Assembly (NCBI GenBank): GCA_012839095.1
Contig: DUOA01000121.1
Coordinates: forward strand, 1 to 33,898
Origin: Clostridiales bacterium
Lineage (GTDB): Bacteria > Bacillota > Clostridia > Caldicoprobacterales > DTU083
Length of the DNA stretch: 33,898 bases
Reading direction: 5' to 3'
Positions 1 to 9,522 of this stretch are shown piece after piece (position 1 is the first letter of the stretch; each line of letters begins with the position of its first letter). Made by a program: the position numbers and the translations under genes. The notes beneath the pieces were generated by a model that ran no database searches, was not told the DNA's origin, and was given only the letters and a program-made list of their open reading frames with translations.

Positions 1-1442
1 GGAGTCGGTCCGGGCGTGGGTTCAGGTTTTCCCTCTCTGTAGTAGATGACACCCTGTATGGGTTGATAGTAGTTTCTTACAAACAATTCCTTGGAAACTC
101 TCTTCCCATTCTCATAAAGAAGGCGGTAAGTATTTACCTTATATCCCGTTCTTGATTTCACATGCACATATTCTCCGCCCGGCTTGGTTACATATTCACC
201 TTTCTTGTCGAGAACTCTTTTCGGCTCGGGGGCCTCTATGGTCTGGAGCAGCTCGGTTACCAGCTTGTATTGGCCGTTGTTGGGGATAGGCTCGCCATAG
301 ATAACCACATAGGCAAGGGTTCCGTTGCGGTAAGCCTGGATGAAGACGGGCGTATTCTTGTTGTTTCTGAATTTCAAATCCGCTCCCCCGTAGGAGACAG
401 TGGCATCCAGTCCCTTATCCAGATATGATATGGGGAAGGAATGGTGATAACGTTCAACTATCTCCAGGCCGGCCAGGGCTGCAGCATTAAATACCGTGGA
501 TGAGGCCTGACAAATGCCGCCGCCTACCGCATCCTTCATGCTCTTGTCCGCAGCAATCACCGGTGCTTCCCTGAAGCCCGCCTTTTCCGTACGACGGCCT
601 ACAATCCCGTTAAATGAAAACACCTCACCTGGATTTAGCTTGGTGCCGTTTATTTTTCGAAGAGCAAGTTCGATATTGTGCATGCGATTGCTTGAACTGC
701 CTGCCATATCGGTATGGAAGGAGACAATCCTGGAGGTGGCTTTTTCCAGATCAGCCAGGCGGACCTGGGCTTCCACCGGAATGGGTTCTATAACAACAGT
801 CCCCGGTTTGCCGGAATCAAAAATCTGCTTTACCTCTTCATAAAGGGATTCAGCATCCACTCTTTGCCCGTCTTTTTCAGGGGAGAAGCTGAACTTTTCC
901 TTTTTGTCAGGGAAGAAGGAAACATCTGCATCTATGGGCTCGATATACAGACTTTCGGCTATCTCCACAATATCATCATATATGAGACTGACATCCATGG
1001 TAAGGGTTGTGTCCATTCTGACTCCCTTATCCCGAATTTCCTCCACCTCATTGTATCGTTCCGACAACTCGCCTTGCCTTGCCAGCTGATATAGTTCATC
1101 CAGCTTTTCCCGCCAGTCTGTCCGGACCATAATGTCCTTGCTGGTAAAGACCCAGCTTTGATCTTCATAAACCAGTTCTGCCCTGAAATTTGCCAGCAGT
1201 TCTTCTTCCGCCTTTTCGAATCGTTCGGATGCTTCCTGCAGGGTCATGCCGCCCAGGGGCACATCGTCCAGTACAATTCCCTCATAAAAGGTATCGCGTT
1301 CAACAGTTTCGGTCATATGTGCCAGCCACTGTTCCTGCGCCTGCTTTTCAGCCTGTTTTTCCAGGTAGTTCTGATAGGCAAATCCACCGGTAAGCAAGGC
1401 TGCCATTAAAAGCAAACCCAGCAGAACATATGTCTTTTTCAT
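1..1442 (-). CDS. VanW-family envelope protein, 3' end beyond window
   Basis: The frame opens at an ATG at 1442 with a GGAGG ribosome site about 8 nt upstream and stays open to base 1, so the C-terminus is missing. It begins with a short basic stretch and a hydrophobic segment (about residues 4-24), indicating a signal anchor or exported protein. Residues about 50-250 resemble the peptidoglycan-binding-like region usual before VanW. The VanW core follows, with NPGEVFSFN and GGGICQASS (about residues 306-314) and a tyrosine/histidine-rich YHHSFPISYL. A G5-like segment and a proline/threonine-rich tail reach the edge. VanW proteins are linked to cell-wall functions, but their biochemistry is not established. 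It is the last visible gene of the kinase-GerMN-phosphodiesterase run and has its own promoter with a regulator-like repeat array. Confidence 0.9.
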   Translation of the reverse strand, partial: MKKTYVLLGLLLMAALLTGGFAYQNYLEKQAEKQAQEQWLAHMTETVERDTFYEGIVLDDVPLGGMTLQEASERFEKAEEELLANFRAELVYEDQSWVFTSKDIMVRTDWREKLDELYQLARQGELSERYNEVEEIRDKGVRMDTTLTMDVSLIYDDIVEIAESLYIEPIDADVSFFPDKKEKFSFSPEKDGQRVDAESLYEEVKQIFDSGKPGTVVIEPIPVEAQVRLADLEKATSRIVSFHTDMAGSSSNRMHNIELALRKINGTKLNPGEVFSFNGIVGRRTEKAGFREAPVIAADKSMKDAVGGGICQASSTVFNAAALAGLEIVERYHHSFPISYLDKGLDATVSYGGADLKFRNNKNTPVFIQAYRNGTLAYVVIYGEPIPNNGQYKLVTELLQTIEAPEPKRVLDKKGEYVTKPGGEYVHVKSRTGYKVNTYRLLYENGKRVSKELFVRNYYQPIQGVIYYREGKPEPTPGPT

Positions 1443-1480: not shown

Positions 1481-1486
1481 ACTATA
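1481..1486 (-). promoter_or_regulatory. Candidate -10 box of the VanW gene (extended, no -35)
   Basis: On the minus strand TATAGT is preceded by TGG, giving an extended -10 (TGnTATAGT). At the normal 17-nt spacing the -35 position reads AAATTT, which does not fit the sigma-A consensus. A missing -35 is typical of promoters that need an activator. The predicted start is near 1474, about 32 nt before the ATG. Confidence 0.5.
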
Positions 1487-1518
1487 CCATATTTTGACGG
1501 CCAAAATTTGGTTTGGTT

Positions 1519-1546
1519 GTTACAAAAGCATTACATTCCTGTTACA
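1519..1546 (-). promoter_or_regulatory. Three 11-bp-phased TGTWAH hexamers upstream of the VanW gene (WalR/PhoB-type box)
   Basis: Read on the minus strand, hexamers TGTAAC (1546-1541), TGTAAT (1535-1530) and TGTAAC (1524-1519) are separated by exactly 5 nt each. All three match TGTWAH-N5-TGTWAH, the published WalR (YycF) recognition form, and the 11-bp period is general for OmpR/PhoB-family regulators. The array lies at about -45 to -72 from the predicted start and overlaps the stop codon of the preceding phosphodiesterase gene. A response regulator of this family is encoded at 6400-7083. The match is seen; binding is inferred. Confidence 0.65.
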
Positions 1547-2273
1547 ATTGGGAAGTAATCTCCCTGGCTGTATCCGGTACATTGGTGATGATTCCGTCTA
1601 CCCCGCCCAAAGCCAGCATCCTGATGTATTCAGGCTCATCTACGGTCCAGGCATTAAGGAGGATTCCATTCTCCCTGCAGCCTGTTATTATGGGAGGGGC
1701 AGCGCTGTAGAAGAGGGGGTGGATGGCCTCCGCCCCTATCCTCCTGGCATATTCCCATGGCTCCACCAGGCCGGCGGCATAGAGCAGGCCGATTTTCAGG
1801 GCAGGTTCCAACTTCTTTATCGCTAGCAGGCTGTAATGATTGAAAGAGGAAATGATAGATGTATCTATGCGATCAAATCGACGCAGGGCATCCACTATCC
1901 TGTCCTCAATTCCCTCATATAAAATAACACCGGATTTTATTTCGATATTCAGTATTCCGTCCCAGCCTTCAACCAGCTTCAAAAACTCATCCAGAGTCAT
2001 AATCCGCTCATCCCTGAACTCGTCACCAAACCAACTGCCAAAATCCAGCTTTTTAAGCTCTTCCAGTGTCATGTCACGGACAAGACCTGTGCCGTTGCTG
2101 ACCCTGTCCACCCTCTCATCATGACATACAACCACCTTGCCGTCCCTGGAAAGGTGTACATCCAGTTCAATACCTCCGGCCTGCATTTCCATTGCCATGC
2201 AAAAAGCCGCTTCCGTGTTTTCCGGCGCGTAGGCAGAAGCACCGCGATGGGCGTATATAACCGGTTTTTTCAA
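1542..2273 (-). CDS. Glycerophosphodiester phosphodiesterase family protein
   Basis: The 243-residue protein has the GDPD signature: H9-R10 in the HRG motif, E18-N19-T20 in PENT, E36 and D38 in ELDVHL, and H51-D52. These are the metal-binding and catalytic positions of GlpQ/UgpQ enzymes, which split glycerophosphodiesters into glycerol-3-phosphate and an alcohol. No signal peptide is present, so it should be cytoplasmic. A longer frame opens with GTG at 2288, directly after the upstream stop, but a GGAGGG site at 2286-2281 lies 7 nt before the TTG at 2273, so TTG is the better start. The gene is translationally close to the GerMN gene before it. Possible substrates are phospholipid head groups or teichoic-acid fragments; the sequence does not decide which. 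Confidence 0.9.
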   Translation of the reverse strand: MKKPVIYAHRGASAYAPENTEAAFCMAMEMQAGGIELDVHLSRDGKVVVCHDERVDRVSNGTGLVRDMTLEELKKLDFGSWFGDEFRDERIMTLDEFLKLVEGWDGILNIEIKSGVILYEGIEDRIVDALRRFDRIDTSIISSFNHYSLLAIKKLEPALKIGLLYAAGLVEPWEYARRIGAEAIHPLFYSAAPPIITGCRENGILLNAWTVDEPEYIRMLALGGVDGIITNVPDTAREITSQL

Positions 2274-2288
2274 AAAATATCCCTCCAC

Positions 2289-3806
2289 TCACTCTTCTTT
2301 TATCAGGGCAGGGTTGAATACAAAAGTATCCCTGAGAGAAATATCCATATAGGAATCCAAGACATCGCCGTCCACAGTAAACTGTACCTCCTGTATATCC
2401 ATGTCATTTACAGGATCGGTCAGAGTGTTAACCACTGCATAGATATCCCGGATAAACCTTCTGTTGTCCGGTTCAGCGCCTGTGAAATAATCAGCGGGAA
2501 CATCCACAACAGCCGTCTTCCCCAAAACCTTTACCTGAAAATCTTCAGGCTCAACATGAGGCGGAATAACCCGGACATGATTCTCTCCTATGGGATCAGA
2601 TGCCAGCTCGGACAGAATACGGGAAGCCGTTCTCAGCTCATTTCTGTCAACAGCCCGGTACTCAGGTGCCAGCAGCCCGCTGTTACCGTCGCCGAAATAA
2701 ACACGGATTTTCCTTCCCACCCTGGCAGGAAAATCCCCTGTTGTGAACTCCATATTAAGAGGTGTTTTGTAGACAGGCTCGTTAATGTATTCCCCTGTTC
2801 CGTTGTTATAATATATCCTGATGAAATGGATATCCGGCAAAGACAAACTGTATACCAGTGAGCTAATTATGGAATACTCCTGTTCTGCTCCTCCGGAAAA
2901 CTGACTTCGGAATTCCTTGGAAAAGTAAAGTGCAATACCATTTGTATCATTATTTCCCTGAACAAGTTCATATTTTTCCAAAATTGTTCCCTTGGGCAGT
3001 ATGGGGTGATAGCCTTCCCCTTCCGCCATGGGCCCTTTAATCAGTTCATTTACAATAGCCTCCGCATCCCCGCCCTTTCGAACCGTTATGGTTCTCACTT
3101 CGGGCAGAAGAAATTTACCTGAATAGTCCTGGAAAAACAGTTCACGATCAATCCTGCGCAATTCTGAATTGTAATAATTCTGTGCTTCCAGAGCCTTGAT
3201 TTCTGATACCACAAGGGGATACCGGCTCAGCAGACCCAAAGCTCCGGCTCTGGCATCGGATGTGTCTGTGATCTCACTGCCGTCAACATACAGTTTCACA
3301 TATTTATAAGCGCCCAGCTCCAGCAGGGAATTTACCAGGGCAGCCCTGGCCACTCCCGGATCTTTGGAACCGTAAAATTCAGCCGACAAATCCACATACA
3401 GGATATTGTCAGCGGATTCCACGCCGTTTACACGAACGTCCTCCGGCATAACCGGGCTGAGGCCGTTTGTCTCCGGCCCCTCAATCAGTTCTTTAAGGAC
3501 ATTCTCAGCCAAATCATCCTGAAAGTCTGAATCAGATGCCTTTCTTTGCTCGGCGGACAACTGCCCGGCTGCTTCATCAAGAAAATAAACGGTTATGCCG
3601 GTCTGCCTAATGGTAAGCATATCTATATTCGATTGACCCGAAATGTCTTCATCTGACGAATCTTCGGCTTCTGTTGACTGTTCCTTCTCCGATTGGTTCA
3701 GCCTTTTAATGTTATCATTTTCCTGCTCTGCCAGCTGCCCCGATGCACAGGCTGTCAGCAGTGCAATGAGGAGGACAATGCTCAGCAATCGTATTGCATG
3801 CGACAT
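2289..3806 (-). CDS. Lipoprotein with three GerMN domains
   Basis: This 505-residue protein starts with a lipoprotein signal ending in LLTAC (Cys20), so it should be anchored to the outer face of the membrane. An acidic, low-complexity linker (about 25-60) follows. Three similar units come next, at about 70-180, 222-342 and 366-485; each opens with a short strand (ITVYF, ELFFQ, IRVYF), carries a basic or proline-rich turn, a long helix and a closing strand. This is the GerMN pattern known from the spore germination protein GerM and LpqB-type lipoproteins. The usual count is one or two, so three is notable. An AGGAGGGG site precedes the ATG. The gene lies 37 nt after the second GerMN gene and directly before the phosphodiesterase. 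The ligand is unknown; a peptidoglycan-related role is inferred. Confidence 0.82.
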   Translation of the reverse strand: MSHAIRLLSIVLLIALLTACASGQLAEQENDNIKRLNQSEKEQSTEAEDSSDEDISGQSNIDMLTIRQTGITVYFLDEAAGQLSAEQRKASDSDFQDDLAENVLKELIEGPETNGLSPVMPEDVRVNGVESADNILYVDLSAEFYGSKDPGVARAALVNSLLELGAYKYVKLYVDGSEITDTSDARAGALGLLSRYPLVVSEIKALEAQNYYNSELRRIDRELFFQDYSGKFLLPEVRTITVRKGGDAEAIVNELIKGPMAEGEGYHPILPKGTILEKYELVQGNNDTNGIALYFSKEFRSQFSGGAEQEYSIISSLVYSLSLPDIHFIRIYYNNGTGEYINEPVYKTPLNMEFTTGDFPARVGRKIRVYFGDGNSGLLAPEYRAVDRNELRTASRILSELASDPIGENHVRVIPPHVEPEDFQVKVLGKTAVVDVPADYFTGAEPDNRRFIRDIYAVVNTLTDPVNDMDIQEVQFTVDGDVLDSYMDISLRDTFVFNPALIKEE

Positions 3807-3843: not shown

Positions 3844-4857
3844 CTATCGGTACTGACTGAACAGCACCGGCAGTCGTACTTTCCATATTCCATCCACCCT
3901 GTCCACTGTAAGTACCTCTGTTACTTCCTTCAGCAAATCCGAGGTCCTGTCGGTGTACTGTACAGTTACAAAGGCCTTGTCAAAAAGATACTCCTCTTCC
4001 AGTACCGGACTGCCCTCAAAAGCAATCATACCGCCCAGCATGGGAGGTATCTGGGTTTTAAGTTCATCCAGCGGAGGCAGGCTGCTTCCGTCCATGGTCC
4101 GGTTGGATAAAAAAGGATATATGAGATCCCATTCCGGATCAACAGTCAACCCGTTGAGTACAAATCTGACTGTCCTGGCAGGGGATTGATTCACATTCTT
4201 GTTTCTGAACAAGGCAACCATGGGAGAATCCGGATCCAGGCCCGGTGTATCCTGCAGAATCAGCTCTGCACCCATCTCCTGATAGGAATGCTGGGTATTG
4301 TTGACCAGCAGCTTTACCTGATTGATCCCGTCAAGAAAAGTAAGTGAATTAACAATGGAGTATATGGCCAGACGTTTCATCTCGGCCTGTACACCGGGGT
4401 AATCCTCCTCCGTGGTGTTCTCCAGGCCGGGAATGGCGGACAGATCGATGGGATGCAGAAAATCATCCGTCAGGTTGACAAAAACGGTATCACTTCGCCT
4501 GGTTATGTCTATGATATCCGTGCCCGGCGGCATAATTAATAATTTCTGGGAAGTCTGCGGTCCCTTGAGCAGTTCTTCCACTATAAGCTGCTCGGTGCTC
4601 TTTTTTTCCTGCATGACTATACGTTCCTCAGGCACCAGGAAATCCGCTATTTCATGTTTAAAGTACAGAACAATTTTTGTTTCCCTGGCTTGCTCATAGG
4701 GATCAATTGGCAGCGGAGTGCTTTCTGTATCCGGCTCTGCCGTACCGTTTTCACCCTGGTTGTTCAGCTGATTTCCCATAAAGCTGCTGCAGCTTGTCAG
4801 CAACAGCAGACCTGCAACAACCATAAGCCATACAATAGATTTTTTGATACTATTCAC
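3844..4857 (-). CDS. GerMN-domain lipoprotein
   Basis: The 337-residue protein has a basic N-terminus, a hydrophobic segment and the lipobox LLTSC (Cys23), so it should be a membrane-anchored surface lipoprotein. One GerMN domain is clear at about residues 60-180 (KIVLYF, VEELLKGP, MPPGTDI, VFVNLTDDF, VKLLVNN). The remaining 150 residues are less clear; the end, with a WKVRLP strand, may be a degenerate second unit or another small domain. The start ATG has an AGGTG site 6 nt upstream. It lies between the histidine kinase and the three-GerMN gene, where WalRK operons of other Firmicutes carry yycH and yycI. The region before it holds a phased hexamer array. Confidence 0.8.
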   Translation of the reverse strand: MNSIKKSIVWLMVVAGLLLLTSCSSFMGNQLNNQGENGTAEPDTESTPLPIDPYEQARETKIVLYFKHEIADFLVPEERIVMQEKKSTEQLIVEELLKGPQTSQKLLIMPPGTDIIDITRRSDTVFVNLTDDFLHPIDLSAIPGLENTTEEDYPGVQAEMKRLAIYSIVNSLTFLDGINQVKLLVNNTQHSYQEMGAELILQDTPGLDPDSPMVALFRNKNVNQSPARTVRFVLNGLTVDPEWDLIYPFLSNRTMDGSSLPPLDELKTQIPPMLGGMIAFEGSPVLEEEYLFDKAFVTVQYTDRTSDLLKEVTEVLTVDRVDGIWKVRLPVLFSQYR

Positions 4858-4871
4858 CTGCCTTGTGAATC

Positions 4872-4877
4872 ATTTTA
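4872..4877 (-). promoter_or_regulatory. Candidate -10 box upstream of first GerMN gene
   Basis: TAAAAT on the minus strand is preceded by TGA, an extended -10. The -35 position at 17-nt spacing is weak (ATGAAT). It could give the lipoprotein-phosphodiesterase genes a separate start from the kinase operon. The phased hexamers at 4888-4926 run through the -35 region. Confidence 0.35.
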
Positions 4878-4887
4878 TCAGACGGTT

Positions 4888-4926
4888 TTTACAAATTCAT
4901 TAAGCAAGCATAACATTCCCGTTAAT
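4888..4926 (-). promoter_or_regulatory. Four-hexamer 11-bp-phased array upstream of first GerMN gene
   Basis: On the minus strand ATTAAC (4926-4921), TGTTAT (4915-4910), CTTAAT (4904-4899) and TGTAAA (4893-4888) are each separated by 5 nt. The second and fourth match TGTWAH fully, the others at 4 of 6 positions. The spacing equals that of the array before the VanW gene. The edge nearest the -10 box is about 10 nt away here and about 32 nt away there, a difference of 22 bp or two helical turns. This is a second candidate target of the OmpR-family regulator. Confidence 0.5.
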
Positions 4927-4928
4927 CG

Positions 4929-6413
4929 TCATAATTCGATGTCAATCAAAGGATTGTAGGGAAGCTCTATATAAAAGGTGGTTCCCTTGTTTTCTTCGCT
5001 TGACACCCTTATAAAACCGTTATGCAAAAGGACAATGCGGTTGGCAATGGACAAGCCCAGCCCTGTTCCGCCGGTGGAACGGGACCTGGCCTTATCCACG
5101 CGGAAAAACCGATCAAAGATGCGGTTGATATCTTCCGGGGCAATGCCGATTCCGGTATCGCTTACCTTGACCACACCATATTCAGGCGTGTTATATACCT
5201 CTATAGTTACCCTTCCGCCTTCCGGAGTATATTTTATTCCATTGTCAATTATATTGGAAATTACCTGCTGGAGCTTAAGCCTGTCGCCCTGAACGACAAC
5301 CTCCTCCTCGCTTATATACTCCAGGCGGATTTTCTTTTGATCCGCCAGGAGCTGCAGGCCCTTTATGGTTCTTAAAGCCAGTTCATTCAAATCTACAGGT
5401 TCCAGCCTGAATTGACTGCCGGCACCTCTCTTATCCATCTGGACCAAGACTAGAAGATCGGTAATAATAGCATTAAGCCTGTCTATTTCAAAATTAATAT
5501 CGGACAAAAACTCCCTGTAGATAGCCGGATCGTCTACCTCCATTCCCAGCAGGGATTCAGCCAGTATCTTAATGGCACTGAGAGGGGTTTTCAGCTCATG
5601 GGATGCATTGGATACAAACTCATTCCTGGCATTGTCCAGGTTCTCCAGTTTTTCACTCATAATATTGAAGGCTTCTCCCAGCTGACGCAGTTCCCCTCCG
5701 CCCCGTATATTAACCCTTTGATTCAAATGGCCTTTACTCATCTTCGTTATGCTGGCGGTCAGTTCCTGGATGGGATGGGTGATAAAACCTGATAGAATCA
5801 GGCTTATAAGAATAATCGACAGACTTATGATGCCGGAGAAAAAAACAATGGTTTTCTGTATGTTTTTGAGAACGGCTTCGATTCCATCCAATGAAGTGGA
5901 CATAAACACCATGCCGATGATTCCCTCTGTATAGTGGGTAATAGGGGCATAGGCATAAAGAACCCTTCTGTTTACAGGAGGATCCCCGGTCGTGATGTAT
6001 AAATCCCTGGCGGGAACAAAGCTGCCCTCCAAAACACCGGCCACTTCCGCATAATCTTCCTTCAGATTTCTGCGAAGCAGACTGGTGCTTTGATAGGAAT
6101 CCTGTTCAACAATGCCGTTCTTGTTGAGAATAAGTATTCTGGTGGATTCCGCCTCAATCTGATCTATTTCATTACCAAACTCCCTTATCTGATAGTATAG
6201 ATTGGGATCCTTGCCATGATACCCGTTTGCTATGATCTGAGCCAGTTGGATGGCATATTTCTGATAAGATGTCTTCTTGTCTTCAATCAAGTGCTGTTCA
6301 AGGATCTCCATTATGGACAGATTGATGATGAAAAAACCGATACCGATGACCAACAGATAAGCAAAGGCAATCCTCCAGCGCAAACTGGAAAAAAAGTGCT
6401 TATTTATCTGCAA
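4929..6413 (-). CDS. Membrane sensor histidine kinase (WalK/PhoR type)
   Basis: A transmembrane helix lies near the N-terminus (about residues 13-35), followed by an extracellular region of about 150 residues, a second helix (about 190-210), a HAMP segment, a HisKA helix with the phospho-acceptor in SHELKTPL (about H272), and an ATPase domain with N box (IIDNGIKYTPEGG), G1 (DTGIGI), F box (FDRFFRVD) and G2 (GTGLGL). All catalytic motifs are intact. No PAS domain is visible between HAMP and HisKA, unlike typical WalK. The frame overlaps the end of the regulator gene. The start is uncertain: TTG at 6425 or TTG at 6413, the latter about 12 nt after a GGGGAG. It should phosphorylate the adjacent regulator. 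Confidence 0.92.
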   Translation of the reverse strand: MQINKHFFSSLRWRIAFAYLLVIGIGFFIINLSIMEILEQHLIEDKKTSYQKYAIQLAQIIANGYHGKDPNLYYQIREFGNEIDQIEAESTRILILNKNGIVEQDSYQSTSLLRRNLKEDYAEVAGVLEGSFVPARDLYITTGDPPVNRRVLYAYAPITHYTEGIIGMVFMSTSLDGIEAVLKNIQKTIVFFSGIISLSIILISLILSGFITHPIQELTASITKMSKGHLNQRVNIRGGGELRQLGEAFNIMSEKLENLDNARNEFVSNASHELKTPLSAIKILAESLLGMEVDDPAIYREFLSDINFEIDRLNAIITDLLVLVQMDKRGAGSQFRLEPVDLNELALRTIKGLQLLADQKKIRLEYISEEEVVVQGDRLKLQQVISNIIDNGIKYTPEGGRVTIEVYNTPEYGVVKVSDTGIGIAPEDINRIFDRFFRVDKARSRSTGGTGLGLSIANRIVLLHNGFIRVSSEENKGTTFYIELPYNPLIDIEL

Positions 6414-7083
6414 AATAATACCCAACTCCCCATTTGGTAAATATAAATTCCGGCTGGCTGGGATTCTTCTCTATCTTTTCCCGTAGGCGGCGGATATGAA
6501 CGTCAACTGTCCGCAGATCTCCAAGGTAGTCATATTTCCAGACAATTTCAAGCAGGTTTTCCCGGCTGTACACCTTTCCGGGGTTGGTGGCAAAAAGCTG
6601 CAGCAGGTCAAACTCCTTGGCTGTCAGATTTACATCCTTTCCATCAATAAGAACACTCCGGTTGGCAAGATTAATCTCCATATTCTTGAAGTTTATTACC
6701 TCTTCCTTGCTGCCTGAACTGCTCAGTCTCCGGAAAAGGGCCTTGATTCGGGCTTTCAGTTCCAGGATGTTGAAGGGCTTGGTTATATAATCGTCTGCAC
6801 CGTAATCCAGGCCGAGAATCTTGTCCATGTCCTCGCCTTTTGCGGTAAGCATGATGACCGGTACCCTGGAGCGCTCCCGGATACGTTGAAGAACTCCCAG
6901 TCCGTTCAGCTTGGGAAGCATCACATCCAAAATAATCAGATCATATGGATTGCTGTTAAATTTTTCAATCGCTTCCTCCCCGTCGTATGCGGCATCTATC
7001 TCATAACCATCCTGTTTCAGGCTGAAGGAAAGGCCTTTCACAATGGCAGGTTCATCGTCCACAATCAGTATTTTCTTTGCCAT
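6400..7083 (-). CDS. OmpR-family response regulator (WalR/PhoP-like)
   Basis: This 227-residue protein has a receiver domain with acidic pocket D9-D10, phospho-acceptor D53 (LIILDVMLP), T80 and K102, followed by a winged-helix DNA-binding domain (about 130-227) ending in RTVDVHIRRLREKI and a GVGYYF hairpin. A longer frame begins at 7101, but ATG at 7083 is preceded by AAAGGA at a normal distance and gives the family-standard MAKKILIVDDE start. It overlaps the kinase gene at its 3' end, so the pair is co-expressed. WalR (essential wall regulator) and PhoP (phosphate) are hard to tell apart from sequence alone; the phased TGTWAH sites nearby and the cell-wall neighbours favour a WalR-like role. 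Confidence 0.93.
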   Translation of the reverse strand: MAKKILIVDDEPAIVKGLSFSLKQDGYEIDAAYDGEEAIEKFNSNPYDLIILDVMLPKLNGLGVLQRIRERSRVPVIMLTAKGEDMDKILGLDYGADDYITKPFNILELKARIKALFRRLSSSGSKEEVINFKNMEINLANRSVLIDGKDVNLTAKEFDLLQLFATNPGKVYSRENLLEIVWKYDYLGDLRTVDVHIRRLREKIEKNPSQPEFIFTKWGVGYYFADK

Positions 7084-7120: not shown

Positions 7121-7149
7121 AGTTTACCATAGCAGCCCTCTAAAATCAA
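7121..7149 (-). promoter_or_regulatory. Sigma-A-type promoter of the two-component operon
   Basis: On the minus strand TTGATT (7149-7144), a 17-nt spacer and TAAACT (7126-7121) form a promoter, with TGG directly before the -10 box. It lies 37 nt before the regulator ATG. A single TGTAAA half-site (7164-7159) lies just upstream, but its 11-bp-phased partners do not match, so autoregulation is not supported. Confidence 0.55.
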
Positions 7150-8085: not shown

Positions 8086-9522
8086 ATGAAACTGTTTCTG
8101 AAAACTACACTGTTTACTGTCATCCTCATCCTGTTATTTCTTTCGACAGCTCCGGGCGGTTCCCTTGCTCATGCAACAGGCCGGTCCGAACCCGATACAG
8201 ATGATATTGATATTTCCATTGTTCAGGAAGAGCAGCACTCAAAGCTCTCTCCTGCAGAGCTGACAGCCGAAGGAGCGGTGCTGATGGAACAGCAGACCGG
8301 CAAAATTCTTTTTGGAAAACATGCGCATCAAAAGCTGTATCCGGCCAGCACCACCAAAATACTTACCGCCCTGCTGGCGGCGGAGCACGGGGATCTGGAT
8401 GAAATGGTTACCGTGGGCGAGGAAGTGCTTTTCGCCGCATGGGACGGTTCAAAGGCAGGACTGGATGAAAATGAAGAGATAAGCCTGAGGGATCTTGTAT
8501 TTGGCCTCATGATCAATTCCGGCAATGATGCAGCCAACACCATTGCCGTTCATGTGGCAAGAAAGGTTTCAGGCAGGCAGCTCTCTGCCCGGGAAGGCCT
8601 GGAATACTTCGCGGATATGATGAATAAACGGGCCAGGGAAGCAGGTGCCCTGCATTCCAATTTTGTAAATGCCCATGGATACCATGATCCCCATCATTAT
8701 ACAACGCCCTACGATTTGGCCATGATATGCAGGGAAGCGGTCAGGAACAGTTTTTTCAGAGAGGCGGCATCTGCCATCGCCATGAACAATACCTATTGGA
8801 ACTCGGGTGAGCCGCGTTTTTGGAGAAGCAAAAATAAACTGCTTAACCCGAAAGAACCGGAATACTATGAGTATGCCGTATGCAGCAAAACAGGCTATAC
8901 CAGTCAGGCGGGACAATGCCTGGTCACATTTGCCTCAAAGAACGGCATGGATCTGGTGGCGGTGGTGCTGAAATCCGAAATGGGAATGCAGTGGGGTGAA
9001 ACCAGGGAATTGTTTGAATACGGGTTTTCCAATTACCGGTATGAAACCCTGCTGGAGCAGGGCAGCATTGTGGAGACTCTGCCTGTAGACAATTACGCAT
9101 CAGACGACTGGGGCAGCCTGGCTGTCCGGGCTGCCTCGGAAAGCTGGGGCGATGTCTTTCATAAGGACGATCTTCCCCAAATAAAAAGGGAATTTGTATG
9201 GGAACCGTCACTTCTGTCGGAAAAGGCAACAGAAGCCATGCCCCGTCTGGAAGCTCCCATTTACAGCGGTCAAAAGGTCGGAGAGCTGCATCTGACCCTA
9301 AGGGGGCAGGTGCTGCACAGCACACCACTTGTTGCTGTCAGGGATGTAAAACGCAAGACCCTGCTGGATGTACTGACCAATGAACCCGAAGGCAGAGCCG
9401 GCTTCAGCTGGCTGTCCCTGGCTCTTGTCATCCTGGCCGCATTCATACTCCTGAGAATTATTGTCTTCTTCATCAACCAGCGAAGAAGGCGAAGATACTA
9501 TACCATGCTGCGGAGATACTGA
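8086..9522 (+). CDS. D-alanyl-D-alanine carboxypeptidase (S11 low-molecular-weight PBP)
   Basis: The 478-residue protein has a signal peptide (about 1-30), then the S11 catalytic domain with SxxK at S88-K91 (PASTTK), SGN at S145-N147 and KTG at K268-G270 (CSKTG). A PBP5-like C-terminal domain follows (about 330-420), and a transmembrane helix (about 441-462) with a very basic tail (RRRRR) anchors it. It removes the terminal D-Ala from peptidoglycan stem peptides outside the cell. The ATG follows AAGGGG at 6-7 nt. It stands alone on the plus strand, divergent from comEA and convergent with rsfS (9 nt gap). Sporulation DacF and vegetative DacA cannot be separated here, although the promoter looks like sigma-A. 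Confidence 0.93.
   Translation: MKLFLKTTLFTVILILLFLSTAPGGSLAHATGRSEPDTDDIDISIVQEEQHSKLSPAELTAEGAVLMEQQTGKILFGKHAHQKLYPASTTKILTALLAAEHGDLDEMVTVGEEVLFAAWDGSKAGLDENEEISLRDLVFGLMINSGNDAANTIAVHVARKVSGRQLSAREGLEYFADMMNKRAREAGALHSNFVNAHGYHDPHHYTTPYDLAMICREAVRNSFFREAASAIAMNNTYWNSGEPRFWRSKNKLLNPKEPEYYEYAVCSKTGYTSQAGQCLVTFASKNGMDLVAVVLKSEMGMQWGETRELFEYGFSNYRYETLLEQGSIVETLPVDNYASDDWGSLAVRAASESWGDVFHKDDLPQIKREFVWEPSLLSEKATEAMPRLEAPIYSGQKVGELHLTLRGQVLHSTPLVAVRDVKRKTLLDVLTNEPEGRAGFSWLSLALVILAAFILLRIIVFFINQRRRRRYYTMLRRY

Follow-up and report, generated by a model that had tools for sequence, protein, structure and literature searches.

A conserved three-hexamer array upstream of a vanW gene as the predicted operator of a WalR/MtrA-type two-component system in uncultured Clostridiales

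Related two-component systems and the locus

To our knowledge, the WalRK (YycFG) two-component system has been reported for all Firmicutes. The consensus for its regulator is TGTWAH-N5-TGTWAH, and in C. difficile, where the genes are ordered walA-walR-walK, a kinase lacking a PAS domain acts with the lipoprotein WalA in an arrangement that its authors liken to the MtrAB system of M. tuberculosis; the most induced targets there include pgdA (PMC9210968). MtrA itself recognizes a direct repeat of 11 bp whose core resembles GTAAC (PMC6265350). Among potential end points of such regulation are proteins with a VanW domain. Two of them in C. difficile, LdtCd4 and LdtCd5, are L,D-transpeptidases whose active site is built on Cys and His; not every VanW protein has this activity (PMC12729407, PMC11986978). 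A search of the literature returned no work joining the GerMN domain with a response regulator and a histidine kinase, and none linking WalR with VanW.

The window, by which we mean the whole stretch of 33,898 nucleotides that was analysed, encodes on its minus strand a response regulator and a histidine kinase followed by two GerMN proteins, a glycerophosphodiester phosphodiesterase (GDPD) and a VanW protein (Table 1). The bacteria are uncultured, and the named relatives are Clostridiales/Firmicutes MAGs. The order ComEA-RR-HK-GerA-GerB is kept across the families designated f1 to f4, f1 being the family of the window and f2 a second family of the same order. A divergent gene for a D-Ala-D-Ala carboxypeptidase lies beside comEA (window 8086-9522) and is syntenic with the operon in f1.

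Table 1. Positions of the genes, predicted operators and promoters in the window
Feature	Position	Strand	Remarks
vanW	3..1442	-	Signal/TM, PG_binding_4, VanW domain and weak G5; truncated by contig end
vanW extended -10	1481..1489	-	TGG-TATAGT (hexamer 1486-1481); exactly 32 nt from third box
vanW three-unit operator (predicted)	1519..1546	-	TGTAAC-aggaa-TGTAAT-gcttt-TGTAAC; 11 bp period; kept in relatives
GDPD (glycerophosphodiester phosphodiesterase)	1542..2288	-	Stop codon overlaps first vanW box
GerB	2289..3806	-	GerMN ('Germane' x3), lipobox-like LLTAC, weak LpqB match
GerA	3844..4857	-	GerMN ('Germane') protein, first gene after kinase
gerA extended -10	4872..4880	-	TGa-TAAAAT (hexamer 4877-4872); 10 nt from third box
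Second three-unit operator (predicted)	4888..4915	-	TGTTAT-gcttg-CTTAAT-gaatt-TGTAAA; between HK and GerA
Histidine kinase	4929..6425	-	HAMP-HisKA-HATPase; candidate sensor
OmpR-family response regulator	6400..7083	-	Candidate regulator of both arrays; best YycF/WalR-like match in genome, below curated cut-off
RR-HK promoter	7121..7149	-	Array-free, TTGATT-N17-TAAACT, conserved

Several features liken this system to WalRK, including the TGTWAH-N5-TGTWAH boxes, a near-identical DNA-binding region, cell-envelope targets, which in C. difficile include a peptidoglycan deacetylase, and a PAS-less kinase with associated lipoproteins, as described there (PMC9210968). The window regulator is the closest to WalR of the six OmpR-family regulators in the genome, and the best PDB alignments of its DNA-binding domain are to domains of the WalR/YycF type. 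However, it scores 258 bits against the YycF model NF040534, below the cut-off of 340 for WalR, and in a phylogenetic tree the window-type regulators form their own group beside canonical WalR and outside the WalR clade (support 90/79, moderate), the two together being joined with support of 86/92. In six genomes (G032, G037, G038, G045, G046 and G049) a window-type regulator coexists with a WalR-like protein at 332-363 bits, and the WalR-like best matches of many other genomes of the class reach 288-363 bits. No regulator above 278 bits with the YycF model was found in the 30 genomes of the order, and canonical WalR thus appears to be absent from it; incomplete assemblies could hide single cases, hardly thirty. 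The kinase likewise departs from canonical WalK, which has about 600 residues and a cytoplasmic PAS domain, in having 498 residues and, in the Pfam search, HAMP, HisKA and HATPase domains without PAS. A further difference is that GerMN lipoproteins are encoded downstream rather than WalA upstream, and that vanW is a predicted target.

The gene order of regulator, kinase and GerMN lipoprotein is that of MtrAB-LpqB of the Actinobacteria, with which the system also shares the PAS-less kinase, a direct repeat of 11 bp built on a GTAAC-like core (PMC6265350) and a cell-wall role. Both protein matches nevertheless fall below their cut-offs (the regulator at 236 against 300 bits for MtrA, GerB at 27 against 602 bits for LpqB), there are two GerMN proteins, and one array is placed within the operon, ahead of gerA. 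Since it appears to work like WalRK and MtrAB while remaining below the curated cut-offs of both families, we count the system as a variant.

The VanW domain of the last gene scores 163 bits against a cut-off of 27 and carries the motif GGGICQASST, with Cys311 and His333/334; C311, H333 and H334 are invariant in seven orthologues. As in LdtCd4 and LdtCd5, the predicted protein is membrane-anchored and combines a PG4-type domain with a VanW domain having the conserved Cys and His, from which it differs in an additional weak G5 domain and in the placement of its gene behind a regulator operon with an array promoter of its own. The product is probably a peptidoglycan L,D-transpeptidase. The sequence-only reading had described the function of VanW as unclear, a description that the work on LdtCd4 and LdtCd5 has overtaken (PMC12729407, PMC11986978). 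Because VanW proteins include L,D-transpeptidases, a link of the array to peptidoglycan cross-linking is likely.

The arrays before vanW and gerA

The array before vanW was first noticed as three TGTWAH hexamers with exact 5-nt gaps, and it is indeed present in this form on the minus strand, which is also sense for vanW (TGTAAC at 1546-1541, TGTAAT at 1535-1530, TGTAAC at 1524-1519), where it matches the WalR consensus exactly. The judgement that such a match would rarely arise by chance in 34 kb is borne out by two overlapping matches to TGTWAH-N5-TGTWAH in the window against 0.11 expected, and by none of 100 dinucleotide shuffles of the window containing two. The proposed position, about -45 to -72 relative to an extended -10 promoter, also holds; a scan of the minus strand recognized no -35 hexamer, and the transcription start would lie near 1474. 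The layout is activator-like, in line with the earlier reading. Whether the pattern is common in this genome has a divided answer. The exact three-unit match is unique to the vanW array in the whole 2.7-Mb genome, but with at most two mismatches there are 31 matches compared with 25 for a reversed-pattern control, which shows that chance readily produces degenerate versions, most of them without a consistent promoter, and the two-unit pattern is no commoner than its control (13 versus 20). The lack of genome-wide enrichment of pairs and looser triples means that the regulon must be small or degenerate, and since counts alone prove little, the case for the array rests on its conservation before orthologous genes.

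Orthologues of vanW were located in f1 and f2, and the expectation that the site would be conserved in related genomes is met by an array before the gene in 10 of 12 f1 genomes, the window's own included, and in six f2 genomes, with unit sequences such as TGTAAY-N5-TGTAAY-N5-CKTAAY. The distance from the third box to the extended -10 is nearly constant, being 32 nt in 14 of the 16 loci as scored and 33 nt in L047, while the scored array of L048 is shifted by one unit and its distance is 32 nt by inspection; the -10 of L054 is without the TG. Two f1 loci (L048 and L049) have a degenerate array, and there the GDPD gene is missing while the array remains in this weaker form. The vanW genes of genus g4 (G003, G009) are without it. 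In f2 a different gene lies upstream of vanW and the two-component genes are elsewhere, and the array is kept, indicating that it travels with vanW. A vanW paralogue (C107 and its relatives, 18 loci) served as the control set, and even when one mismatch is allowed 16 of these loci are without an array on the sense strand; the exceptions are G001 (L214), with a full array, and L041, with a one-mismatch array.

A second array, passed over in the sequence-only reading together with the more distant predicted members of the regulon, precedes gerA, directly behind the kinase gene. In most f1 genomes it takes the form TGTTAAGYTTGCTTAA-N-TTTGTAAAA, and with the 10-nt spacing to the -10 it is present by inspection in 29 of the 30 genomes of the order (G023 being left out). 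Related gerA promoters, with 10 nt between the last box and a hexamer resembling TATAAT, are present in genomes of other families (G047, G049, G045 and G038); G032, G037, G046 and G054 keep the RR-HK-GerMN order and have no gerA array. The spacing before vanW is 22 nt longer than that before gerA. This amounts to two 11-bp units, the difference to be expected of a regulator that has to meet the polymerase on the same helical face. An operator spacing of 10 or 32 nt, two such units apart, is a directly testable rule for activation. In most f1 relatives (L044-L051; window 4913-4900) the gerA array also contains a conserved near-palindrome, TTAAGCTTGCTTAA, that includes the spacer. This is more than a plain direct-repeat operator needs and may point to a second factor or to a stricter preference for the spacer.

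Identity of the regulator

The reading that we regard as probable is that the array is an OmpR-family operator of the WalR/MtrA type, very probably for the regulator at 7083-6400, controlling a small cell-wall regulon. The sequence-only reading had named the same regulator as the obvious candidate, and as the closest relative of WalR in the genome, encoded beside a second conserved array, it is still the best one. WalR-, PhoP- and MtrA-type boxes are indistinguishable by sequence, and this overlap of box types between subfamilies leaves some room for a genuine OmpR-family operator bound by another regulator, for example the one on C93, encoded after mutS2, with a PhoP/PhoB-like role. That protein, one of several candidates offered by the genome's complement of OmpR-family regulators, reaches 243 bits with the YycF model, and the f2 vanW genes do not adjoin two-component genes. 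We nevertheless consider this unlikely: across the order the gene for the window-type kinase is followed immediately by a conserved array, with a related promoter in some other families, the WalR-like DNA-binding domain belongs to the window-type regulator, and the genes bearing arrays are cell-wall genes. The profile for PstS (TIGR02136) found no match in the window's own genome, which also weighs against this reading.

The same absence bears on phosphate control, in which a PhoP-type operator would link the glpQ-like GDPD gene and vanW to phosphate starvation. PhoP/PhoB boxes are also 11-bp-period direct repeats bound by OmpR-family regulators, the boxes read as TTACA repeats on the plus strand, and GDPD is encoded inside the operon. 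Against this, no phosphate genes are linked to the system, the window regulator scores 223 bits with the PhoB model against a cut-off of 296, the regions upstream of GDPD have no array, and in the f2-f4 loci, where the gerA array is retained, no GDPD gene was found after gerB. We therefore reject a phosphate regulon as highly improbable, on the missing PstS, the PhoB score and the cell-wall character of the array genes; of the original proposal that a WalR/PhoB-type box ties VanW to envelope-stress or phosphate control, the operator of WalR/MtrA type survives and the phosphate branch does not. There is also very little to recommend an AT-rich repeat that arose by chance, or is held in place by the GDPD stop codon, and has no regulatory function. 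Degenerate forms of the pattern are no commoner than the controls across the genome, and the first hexamer does overlap the stop codon (1544-1542), but the sequence, the 11-bp period and the 32-nt distance are kept across two families, and the paralogue is generally without the array. The stop codon as the cause of conservation was rejected because the box is kept where another gene lies upstream, as in f2, or GDPD is absent, as in L048 and L049.

A predicted cell-wall regulon

For the WalR/MtrA-type operator we envisage that three protomers of the regulator would bind in head-to-tail orientation along a single helical face, following the 11-bp period, and would be placed to recruit RNA polymerase to extended -10 promoters that have no -35. 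The regulator and kinase would be transcribed from their ordinary array-free promoter, and the regulator, once phosphorylated by the PAS-less kinase, would activate VanW, probably a peptidoglycan L,D-transpeptidase, and the GerMN lipoproteins, whose genes come right after that of the kinase and which could be accessory sensors similar to LpqB or WalA. Repression is predicted for a secreted CAP-domain protein and may extend to an M23 peptidoglycan hydrolase, the array in these cases overlapping the -10 or lying downstream of it. Binding of DNA by this regulator is something we infer, and the assignment of activation to vanW and gerA and of repression to CAP and M23 is read from the position of the boxes only. 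The system would appear to do the work of WalRK in this order. A bolder proposal, which we advance tentatively and would not yet call likely, is that in an order without canonical WalR a paralogous GerMN-linked two-component system took over the WalRK role and acts directly, by means of helically phased three-box operators, on peptidoglycan 3-3 cross-linking through the VanW L,D-transpeptidase, on genes for cell-wall remodelling and on the accessory GerMN lipoproteins of the system itself. The conserved DNA evidence ties a VanW-family, probably cross-linking, enzyme to a regulator of cell-wall homeostasis and suggests a lineage of Firmicutes in which WalRK is replaced by an arrangement like MtrAB-LpqB; a single purified protein would suffice to check the predicted target promoters.

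The CAP-domain gene emerged from a family-wide scan as the third recurring place for an array. Before the window genome's own copy (C3:13504-14250; L216:2005-2751) the array, at C3:13436-13463, overlaps the promoter TTGACA-N17-TACGAT, including its -10, a placement of the repressor type that makes CAP a probable repressed target. The array is kept in the ten f1 loci with a readable upstream region (L232-L241), the right-hand neighbour of the gene differing in G003 and G009, and a pair resembling TGTTAC-N5-TGTTAA lies at the promoter in many of the f2-f4 regions upstream of CAP. With a unit matrix trained on the vanW and gerA arrays only, 79% of 24 CAP upstream regions fall at or below the threshold of p<=0.02, compared with 0-15% for the control regions upstream of RR (the RR-HK promoter regions), gerB, GDPD, Dac and ComEA and with 29% for the vanW paralogue control. 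Since it was a search for boxes within the family that brought CAP to light, it is the orthologues at the level of the order that support it independently.

The M23 and polysaccharide deacetylase (PDA) genes are suggested as targets by the same matrix, at 46% and 18% respectively, with degenerate sites. Arrays of 11-bp period with weaker boxes lie in the leader of the M23 coiled-coil peptidase gene and upstream of the polysaccharide deacetylase gene. The M23 genes (L317-L329) share a conserved leader block, in many of them TTTAAT-N5-TGTCAY-N5-CTTAAA, downstream of a conserved promoter-like block, and the polysaccharide deacetylase genes (L303-L314) are preceded by TGTTACA...TTAAACCTTTGTTAAATC-like blocks at a varying distance from the -10. 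A match at C39 (L063), between transport and LacI-type genes, was set aside as having no cell-wall neighbour.

Arrays were also noted before a gene for a PG_binding_1 protein in G003, G009 and G005 (L205, L206 and L208), the G003 instance (L205) also involving LysM. Finally, a degenerate array of four to five units in the window's own genome (L068; C16:25715-25742) precedes a gene for a secreted protein with a signal peptide, and its distance of 54 nt (10+44) from an extended -10 fits the helical rule.
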